A stretch of 64,000 nt of DNA from Candidatus Hydrogenedentota bacterium (GTDB lineage Bacteria > Hydrogenedentota > Hydrogenedentia > Hydrogenedentales > SLHB01): positions 323,973 to 387,972 of the forward strand of contig JAKPDK010000167.1 in assembly GCA_029552745.1 (NCBI GenBank). The letters run 5' to 3'. The stretch's first letter is position 1; every line of letters starts with the position of its first letter. The notes beneath the pieces were generated by a model. That model was not told the origin of the DNA and searched no databases. It was given only the letters and a program-made list of their open reading frames with translations. Made by a program: the position numbers and the translations under genes. This document shows positions 27,425 to 30,920 of this stretch, in pieces.

Positions 27425-28585
27425 GTGGTTACTATGAGGGTATTGCATCTATTTAGTAACTGGAAGTGGACGGGACCGGCGGAACCGGCCTTGAATTTGT
27501 GTGTTGCATTGCGTCAGGTGGGAGTGGACGCGGATTTTGCCTGTGCGGCAGGCCCGGGCGATGTGGTGAATAAGGTGGTGAAGACGGCGCGGGATCGAGG
27601 TGTAGAGCCGCTGCTTCAGTTTCATTTGTCCAAACATTTAAACCCATTATGGAATTGGGTGGATGCGCGCAGACTGAGAAGTTACCTGGCTAGGAACCGT
27701 TATGACCTTGTTCATGTGCATTTGGACAATGATCATCGGATTGCGGTACGTGCACTACGCGGGCTGGGCATTCCCCTGGTGCGGTCGAGTTACTACGGAG
27801 AAGGGTTCCCTGACAAAGGGGCTTATCGGGAATTATTGAGGGCGACGGCAGTCGTGGTGGAACCTTCCATGATGGCGTGGGAACGCGACGAAAAGGTTTT
27901 TGGTAACTCGGGGTGCGGGTTCAGGGTAGTGCCGGTAGGAGTGGACACGGCACGTTTTGATCCGAGACGAGATGTCCCGGATGCCAGGCGATGGCTGAAG
28001 ATTGAGTCGGACGCGTTTGTTGTGGGGATTGTGGCGCGGATGCAGCGGCACCGTCGGTTTGAAGATTTTTTTGAGGCGGTGCGACTTTTGGCAGCTTCGT
28101 ATCCGAACGTGGTTGTAATCGTCGTGGGACGCGGAAGTCGACAACAAGAAGTGGGTTTTGACCCGGTTCGGCAGTTGGGGTTGCAACGGTATGTGCGCTT
28201 TCCCGGGTATGTGGATGGCGAAAATTATGTGGGCATGTTGAAGGCATTTGATGTTCAGGTGATGCTGGTGCCGGGGAGTGATGGGACATGCCGGGCGGTG
28301 CGTGAGGGAATGGCGATGGGGAAGCCTGTGGTGGTGGCACGTCGCGGTATGCTTCCGGAGATGGTGGAGCATGAAAAGACGGGGTTGGTAACAGACGGGT
28401 CCCCGAAGGGGTTGTTTGAAGCGTTGCGTCGTTTGGCCGAAGATCGGCGGTATTCGCGGGAGTTGGGACGTAATGCGCGCGAGTTTGCCGTCCGGGAATG
28501 GTCTTTGGGGCGTCAAGCAGACCGTGTTTTCGATGTATATAAGGATTTAGTAGGCGGGGTTGACTTAGGGGCTTGCCGGTCTTAG
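27425..28585 (+). CDS. Glycosyltransferase family 4 protein
   Basis: This 386-aa protein starts at a GTG (27425) 12 bases after GAGGGAGAGG; an ATG three codons later is an alternative. The GT-B fold is evident: NWKWTGPAEPALNLCVALR acceptor loop near the N-terminus, a second Rossmann domain with GIVARMQRHRRFEDFFEA, VIVVGRGSRQQE, VRFPGYVDGENYVGML, and the donor-binding E-x7-E region EGMAMGKPVVVARRGMLPE followed by TGLVTDGSP. It probably adds a sugar from a nucleotide donor to a lipid or surface glycan. No glycan cluster surrounds it, and its stop codon lies inside the CIRCE-like site ahead of groES. Codons use T/G-ending forms more than neighbouring genes. Confidence 0.87.
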   Translation: MVTMRVLHLFSNWKWTGPAEPALNLCVALRQVGVDADFACAAGPGDVVNKVVKTARDRGVEPLLQFHLSKHLNPLWNWVDARRLRSYLARNRYDLVHVHLDNDHRIAVRALRGLGIPLVRSSYYGEGFPDKGAYRELLRATAVVVEPSMMAWERDEKVFGNSGCGFRVVPVGVDTARFDPRRDVPDARRWLKIESDAFVVGIVARMQRHRRFEDFFEAVRLLAASYPNVVVIVVGRGSRQQEVGFDPVRQLGLQRYVRFPGYVDGENYVGMLKAFDVQVMLVPGSDGTCRAVREGMAMGKPVVVARRGMLPEMVEHEKTGLVTDGSPKGLFEALRRLAEDRRYSRELGRNAREFAVREWSLGRQADRVFDVYKDLVGGVDLGACRS

Positions 28586-28608
28586 CACTCGGTTGTCATA
28601 GTGGCTAA
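28582..28608. promoter_or_regulatory. CIRCE-like element upstream of groESL
   Basis: TTAGCACTC at 28582-28590 equals the left arm of the HrcA operator (TTAGCACTC-N9-GAGTGCTAA). The right arm is AGTGGCTAA at 28600-28608, the consensus AGTG-CTAA with one extra G. Overall length is 27 bp, as for CIRCE. It overlaps the stop codon of the glycosyltransferase gene and lies about 320 bases before groES, farther than usual, so it may be functional, degenerate or coincidental. Confidence 0.45.
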
Positions 28609-28611
28609 TAC

Positions 28612-28681
28612 TTTGCCATTTTGGCAAAATATTTCGTATGAAATTGGGGGTTTTGGGGTTTTCGTGTGCCAATTGGGCAAA
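28612..28681. promoter_or_regulatory. Two matched 7-3-7 inverted repeats upstream of the groESL promoter
   Basis: TTTGCCA-TTT-TGGCAAA (28612-28628) is a perfect palindrome. TGTGCCA-ATT-GGGCAAA (28665-28681) has the same 7-3-7 layout and nearly the same half-sites. Their centres are 53 bp apart, about five helical turns, on the same DNA face. They lie about 95-150 bp upstream of the -24/-12 promoter, where enhancer-binding activators of sigma-54 usually bind. The bound protein is unknown. Confidence 0.5.
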
Positions 28682-28764
28682 CTATTTTCTTGAAGATGCA
28701 AGCACGGGTCGGGTTCTTACACGTAAGTGATTACCAATAAATATCTTATACATTTTACCCCTTT

Positions 28765-28792
28765 TTGGCACACGTCTTGCTTAAGGTATAAG
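28765..28792 (+). promoter_or_regulatory. Candidate sigma-54 promoter of groESL (overlapping a sigma-70-like site)
   Basis: TGGCAC (28766-28771), N5, TTGCT (28777-28781) fits the -24/-12 consensus with GG and GC exactly ten bases apart. The same stretch can be read as a sigma-70 site, TTGGCA (28765-28770) with a 16-base spacer and TATAAG (28787-28792). The start codon of groES lies about 147 bases further on. No other groESL promoter is evident in the 28586-28927 gap. Confidence 0.55.
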
Positions 28793-28927
28793 CGTCTTTA
28801 AGAGATTTTGGGAAAGCAGTTGTATCTGCTACCAAATTCTTTTGCCATTTTTGCCACGTTTTGTGGTTGAAACGGGTGCTTGTAGCGTATAGGAACATAA
28901 GAGAAAAAAAGACAGGAGGTAACCCAC

Positions 28928-29215
28928 ATGAAGATTCGTCCGCTTGCAGACAGGATTTTGGTAAAGCGTGAGGAACCGAGTGAGACTGTCCGTGGGGGAA
29001 TTATTATTCCGGACACGGCGAAAGAGAAACCCCAGGAGGGGCGTGTGATTGAGGTAGGTCCGGGTCGTTTGGATGAGCAGGGCAAACGGGTGCCGATGGA
29101 AGTGAAGAAAGGCGACCGGATTCTGATGGGGAAATATGCGGGTACGGAAGTGAAGATAGATGGTGAAGAGCACATTATCATGCGGGAAGATGATGTGCTT
29201 GCGGTGATCGAGTAA
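28928..29215 (+). CDS. groES: Co-chaperonin GroES (Cpn10)
   Basis: This 95-aa protein is the full length of bacterial Gro[19 protein letters not shown] opens the barrel strand, [16 protein letters not shown] is the mobile loop that contacts Gro[18 protein letters not shown] and EDDVLAVIE close the fold. AGGAGGT lies eight bases before the ATG. It caps the GroEL ring as a heptamer in the cytoplasm. groEL follows after 61 bases on the same transcript. Confidence 0.97.

Positions 29216-29270: not shown

Positions 29271-30920
<1,650 letters not shown>

Follow-up and report, generated by a model that had tools for sequence, protein, structure and literature searches.

How is chaperonin synthesis controlled in a bacterium whose groESL operon appears to lie behind a sigma-54-type promoter? 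Usually it is HrcA/CIRCE or a heat-shock sigma factor that governs chaperonin synthesis. In Bradyrhizobium, groESL3, one of several groESL copies, is under a nitrogen-fixation regulator. That copy is described as RpoN-dependent and as having a high RpoN promoter score (PMC4842269). An earlier note on the DNA considered here, from a Hydrogenedentota bacterium, had proposed that groESL is transcribed by sigma-54 RNA polymerase with the help of an enhancer-binding protein (EBP) acting from two matched palindromes upstream. We report a comparative analysis of this proposal, from the 64-kb stretch containing the operon (the window; G000:C25:323973-387972, within a 4.36-Mb MAG) to the order to which the genome belongs.

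The groESL locus and its promoter

The groES and groEL genes form an operon in the window, and a single groES was found in the whole genome (Table 1). A sigma-54 reading requires rpoN, which is present (E=3.4e-64), as is hrcA; the genome also encodes 13 strong EBPs, with four more EBP-family matches near the family cut-off. No recurrent regulator gene adjoins groESL among the relatives compared. For comparison, groES upstream regions were gathered from 56 genomes of the order; searches at the level of the phylum covered the same 68 genomes as those at the level of the order.

Table 1. Features of the groESL region, in window coordinates
Feature	Position	Strand	Remark
CIRCE-like site TTAGCACTC-N9-AGTGGCTAA	28582..28608	+	14/18 to CIRCE; possible degenerate HrcA operator
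Palindrome P1, TTTGCCA-TTT-TGGCAAA (TTTGCCATTTTGGCAAA)	28612..28628	.	Proposed primary site of the groESL EBP
Palindrome P2, TGTGCCA-ATT-GGGCAAA (TGTGCCAATTGGGCAAA), asymmetric	28665..28681	.	Proposed second EBP site, sigma-54-type loci
Sigma-54 promoter element, -24 TGGCAC / -12 TTGCT	28766..28781	+	Conserved in 15/16 family loci, absent elsewhere
Predicted transcription start	28792	+	Placed from the -12 position alone
Degenerate leader palindrome P3, TTTGCCATTTTTGCCAC	28841..28857	.	3 mismatches
Ribosome-binding site AGGAGG of groES	28914..28919	+	Read from sequence
groES	28928..29215	+	95 aa co-chaperonin; close orthologs in relatives
groEL	29277..30920	+	547 aa chaperonin; used for GroES-GroEL tree

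The promoter element TGGCAC-N5-TTGCT (TGGCACACGTCTTGCT) is as previously described, with GG and GC ten bases apart, and it is the only exact match in the window. One such site alone could be due to chance, and when one mismatch is allowed the window holds two -24/-12 matches against 1.1 expected. Its conservation in relatives removes this doubt: although a one-mismatch site is expected about once per 64 kb, the element, its order and its spacing relative to the other sites recur across many genera, and we give negligible credence to the view that these elements are functionless chance matches. On a sigma-54 consensus score with a maximum of 22, 15 of the 16 sigma-54-type groESL loci in the window's family score 21-22 and all other loci score 19 or less; the exception in the family, G018, has TGGATC-N5-TTGCG at the same place. 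Loci without the sigma-54 element mostly carry a strong TTGACA-N17-TATTAT-like promoter, usually with CIRCE, and some loci of family f4 have a weaker sigma-70 promoter, weakest in G057. Two genomes, G007 and G010, belong to the window's family yet have a sigma-70 groESL promoter.

It might be argued that the -24/-12 match is incidental and that groESL is transcribed by sigma-70 in the window too, for example from TTGGCA-N16-TATAAG, which overlaps that element, or from a distal promoter inside the CIRCE-like site. TTGGCA-N16-TATAAG is indeed an acceptable match to sigma-70, and sigma-70 and sigma-54 elements do overlap at G002, G014, G019 and G023. We consider this very unlikely: the best sigma-70 promoter at the window locus does not rise above chance (p=0.56), while the -24/-12 element is conserved in 15/16 loci. 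At the four overlapping loci (groES upstream regions L005, L012, L003 and L019, respectively), which are otherwise of sigma-54 type, sigma-70 TTGAC-N19-TAAACT or TAGACT shares bases with sigma-54 GGCAC-N5-TTGCT. These loci are possible intermediates of a sigma-factor switch.

The CIRCE-like site

A CIRCE-like site does lie just before the palindromes, where the earlier note had placed it. When compared with CIRCE, TTAGCACTC-N9-GAGTGCTAA, its left arm is perfect and its right arm degenerate, whereas in this genome a CIRCE that matches at 18/18 positions stands before hrcA-grpE-dnaK (L151:5566-5592, G000:C109). Given this difference, the dnaK and groESL operons may be controlled separately. The form TTRGCACTC-N12-TGCTAA stands at a constant distance before P1 in the sigma-54 loci of the family. 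About half of the sigma-54 loci also show a further palindrome, TGCCRATTTRGCA, overlapping the CIRCE-like left arm 39 bp before P1 (for example L005, L010, L012, L019 and L090).

Paired palindromes at groESL

Upstream of the -24/-12 element we recovered both palindromes of the earlier note, 53 bp apart. P1 is the sole zero-mismatch 7-3-7 site in the window, and the motif scan proposed at the time finds its 15-bp core, TTGCCAWWWTGGCAA, exactly once in the 4.36-Mb genome. Across the order, 8 of 68 genomes contain the exact core, in most cases at groESL; the shorter TGCCAWWWTGGCA is concentrated there too, its other matches falling mostly within coding sequences. Indeed, P1-type palindromes are found order-wide and are almost confined to groESL, matches elsewhere being mostly inside unrelated coding sequences. 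An exception is G062, in which a palindrome at a contig end adjoins a gene for a glycosyltransferase; genes of this type lie beside groES in some relatives. When about 85,000 species were scanned for the P1-P2 pattern, it was found only at Hydrogenedentota groESL, together with one chance match in a coding sequence of Cloacimonadota.

P1 is conserved in related groESL loci, and P2 (YGCCRNNTGGGCA) was found at every one of the 14 sigma-54-type loci whose sequence extends far enough to include it, and at 0 of 40 others. The two palindromes are separated by 51-55 bp (43 bp in genus g3), and P2 lies 89-92, 99-103 or 112 bp from the promoter, that is, in steps of about one helical turn. Insertions and deletions of about one turn between sites suggest that the sites are constrained to one face of the helix, though related genomes are not independent. 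The pair is conserved together with the -24/-12 element across many genera of the family, which answers the comparison among relatives that the earlier note had put forward. The earlier reading needs one correction here: P2 is diagnostic of sigma-54, but P1 alone is not, being present also at sigma-70 groESL promoters of related families. In those sigma-70-type relatives a palindrome typically lies far upstream and another within the leader, and better copies of the degenerate P3 occur in leaders of relatives (for example TGCCAAAATGGCA). Since both the P1 and P3 types are also present at sigma-70 promoters, the palindromes alone are no proof of EBP action.

P1 was also flagged as a terminator-like hairpin, as would suit palindromes that serve as RNA hairpins or terminators and not as DNA sites. 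This is scarcely credible, because both palindromes precede the promoter and because the centre is TTT or AAA in relatives, as for a dyad-symmetric DNA site.

Additional chaperonin genes were seen in some relatives. The second groEL of G030 (L143:1-3001, G030:C155) has its own sigma-70 promoter, a perfect CIRCE and, where the gene before it ends, the upstream palindrome TGCCAAATTGGCA (groEL strand). G007 has a second, divergent groES (L091, G007:C1032), 57% identical, with no evident palindrome upstream.

A candidate regulator that follows the palindromes

The earlier note had also called for a search for an enhancer-binding regulator gene, and this search yielded a candidate. The post-AAA segment of each of the 13 EBPs was compared with 14 genomes selected for their promoter types, and L050, an orphan NtrC-type EBP (G000:C102:47555-48934), was alone in tracking the palindromes, with matches in 9 of 10 palindrome-positive and 0 of 4 palindrome-negative genomes. 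Of the other EBPs in this test, most also occur in genomes that are palindrome-negative, and the remainder gave few matches or none. Among them, the NifA-like EBP (L048) was rejected as the regulator: a search of G002 and G006 did not find it although both have the promoter, and palindrome-negative genomes do contain it.

L050 scores across the order are bimodal, and orthologs were called at 82 bits or more, the background reaching at most 72 bits. With palindrome-positive defined as a score of 10/12 or better, L050 orthologs are found in 30/36 palindrome-positive and 0/18 palindrome-negative genomes (Fisher p=1.4e-9, uncorrected for phylogeny). The palindrome-positive genomes in which no ortholog was found (G008, G048, G035, G056, G058 and G067) are draft MAGs that are 60-97% complete. 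Family f10 splits by genus in both L050 and the palindrome, and f11 does likewise except for G067, a MAG that is 60% complete. No palindrome with two or fewer mismatches was found near the L050 gene, so the link between L050 and the palindrome is without autoregulation to back it.

L050 has the Pfam domains Response_reg, Sigma54_activat and HTH_8, the last being a Fis-type DNA-binding domain at residues 416-456. The structure model has a mean pLDDT of 88.5, and the nearest solved structures include NtrC1, NtrX, ZraR and FleQ. The receiver keeps its fold, with D in some genomes and E in others at the acceptor position and with a degenerate acidic pair, and no kinase gene recurs next to the L050 gene among the neighbourhoods compared; for these reasons, phosphorylation of L050 is doubtful. 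Downstream of the regulator gene there is a conserved HEAT-repeat-like protein (L226, L227 and L228, in G013, G017 and G003, respectively), which is a possible partner or sensor.

Motifs of the candidate regulator match promoter type

The AAA+ domain of L050 in the window's genome has the arginine finger and both Walker motifs (A and B) as well as GAFTGA; this motif set was not found in the L050 orthologs from sigma-70 lineages. Of 38 orthologs, 20 retain GAFTGA, and these 20, which also have Walker B and the arginine finger, all come from the window's family; 15 of their genomes have a visible sigma-54-type groESL promoter and in the other five no groES was found. The motif is lost in the remaining 18, including G007 and G010, the two members of the same family with sigma-70 groESL. 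A groESL upstream region is visible in 17 of these 18 genomes, and none of the 17 has a sigma-54 element. Thus GAFTGA is intact only where the visible promoter is of the sigma-54 type. The match between GAFTGA and promoter has a Fisher p of 1.8e-9 when genomes are treated as independent, which overstates their independence, as the EBP tree needs only one change and the split is nearly one of clades.

The GroES-GroEL tree, by comparison, places G007 and G010 inside the window's family. An intact ancestor with more than one loss of GAFTGA would be favoured, because GAFTGA and Walker B should be hard for an ATPase to regain. AAA+ core identity is 83% within the GAFTGA-intact group and 43% between the intact and lost groups, and the recognition helix is 82% identical between the two groups. 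The AAA+ domains of all L050 orthologs group in a single clade, separate from those of the 12 other EBPs in the window's genome, which does not support the idea that the sigma-54 lineage borrowed this domain from a paralog. The groESL promoter and its regulator therefore seem to have evolved in step.

These results bear on another explanation, in which the promoter is of the sigma-54 type but the palindromes bind a separate repressor that is not an EBP, activation coming from another EBP or from an unseen site. The palindrome is indeed more widespread than the sigma-54 promoter, and in related families it flanks sigma-70 promoters in a manner suiting an operator pair. Yet L050, the only EBP distributed as required, has a recognition helix that hardly varies, and its GAFTGA is missing precisely where groESL is without the sigma-54 element, and P2, the second site of the same form, occurs solely with sigma-54 elements. 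We therefore regard a separate repressor as unlikely.

Proposed mechanism

We consider it very probable that groESL has a dedicated regulator. In the window's family it would be a sigma-54 activator, and in other lineages it would act on sigma-70 promoters without a working ATPase. Sigma-54 control through an EBP at the palindrome pair, as first proposed for this locus, draws support from rpoN, from conservation, from the distribution of L050 and from the GAFTGA match. The binding of L050 to these sites and the activation that would follow are inferred from such comparisons. Sigma-54 RNA polymerase would transcribe the groESL operon of the family from the -24/-12 element (28766-28781), and L050, with its degenerate receiver, AAA+ domain and Fis-type HTH, would switch it on. 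Dimers of L050 may occupy both palindromes, which would place them on the same side of the helix some 100 to 150 bp ahead of the promoter, and may assemble there into an ATPase ring. Looping of the DNA would then bring the GAFTGA loop of L050 to the sigma-54 closed complex, whose remodelling with ATP would open the promoter.

In related lineages the L050 ortholog keeps the DNA-binding helix, and groESL keeps the palindromes, but GAFTGA and most ATPase motifs are lost. There the groESL promoter is of the sigma-70 type, usually with CIRCE, and the motor-dead protein probably modulates it. It may be a repressor or a looping factor, bound at the palindromes that flank the promoter (P1 and that of the leader). 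As to how this state arose, it is conceivable, at somewhat less than an even chance, that an ancestral ATP-driven sigma-54 activation was lost several times, the AAA+ domain decaying and a sigma-70 promoter, often with CIRCE, being gained while the DNA-binding domain and palindromes were kept; the loci with overlapping elements would be intermediates in this process.

Relation to known systems

The system resembles NifA/sigma-54 control of Bradyrhizobium groESL3 in that a groESL operon with an RpoN-type promoter would be driven by an EBP. In contrast with that case, a single groES was found in the window's genome and the candidate activator is an orphan EBP, apparently serving groESL alone, and not NifA. 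For Bacteroidota and Planctomycetota, sigma-54 promoters of chaperone genes have been predicted or reported (PMC12316311), and Chlamydia has a tandem sigma-66/sigma-54 hrcA promoter (PMC8762339). As far as the accessible parts of these two sources go, they too concern sigma-54 control of heat-shock chaperone genes outside Pseudomonadota, but they make no mention of a dedicated activator, of paired palindromes or of a promoter and activator that switch together.

EBPs that act at sigma-70 promoters are known from the GAFTGA-less NtrC of Caulobacter and Rhodobacter and from VpsR of Vibrio cholerae (PMC10274813), and the L050 orthologs of sigma-70 lineages are likewise without the sigma-54 loop. 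Those proteins regulate many genes, whereas in Hydrogenedentota the loss varies with the promoter type of a single operon within one order. HrcA/CIRCE control is shared to the extent that related families have CIRCE at their sigma-70 groESL promoters and the window's genome has it at dnaK; at groESL of the sigma-54 lineage, by contrast, it is degenerate and far upstream, before the palindromes. In Myxococcus xanthus, HsfA is an NtrC-type protein. With HsfB it constitutes a two-component phosphorelay that activates the heat-shock gene lonD (Ueki and Inouye 2002, cited in PMC9548883); that system differs in being a paired two-component system and in its target. In open-licence literature we found neither a dedicated groEL EBP nor a coupled switch of promoter and activator, and among open-licence papers none on Hydrogenedentes with sigma-54.

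In summary, chaperonin synthesis in this family seems to rely on an activator that works all-or-none, requires ATP and serves a single operon. The order also offers a natural series, with some loci having overlapping promoters, in which the sigma type of a promoter and the chemistry of its activator change together at one target, and this makes switching between sigma-54 and sigma-70 control directly testable.
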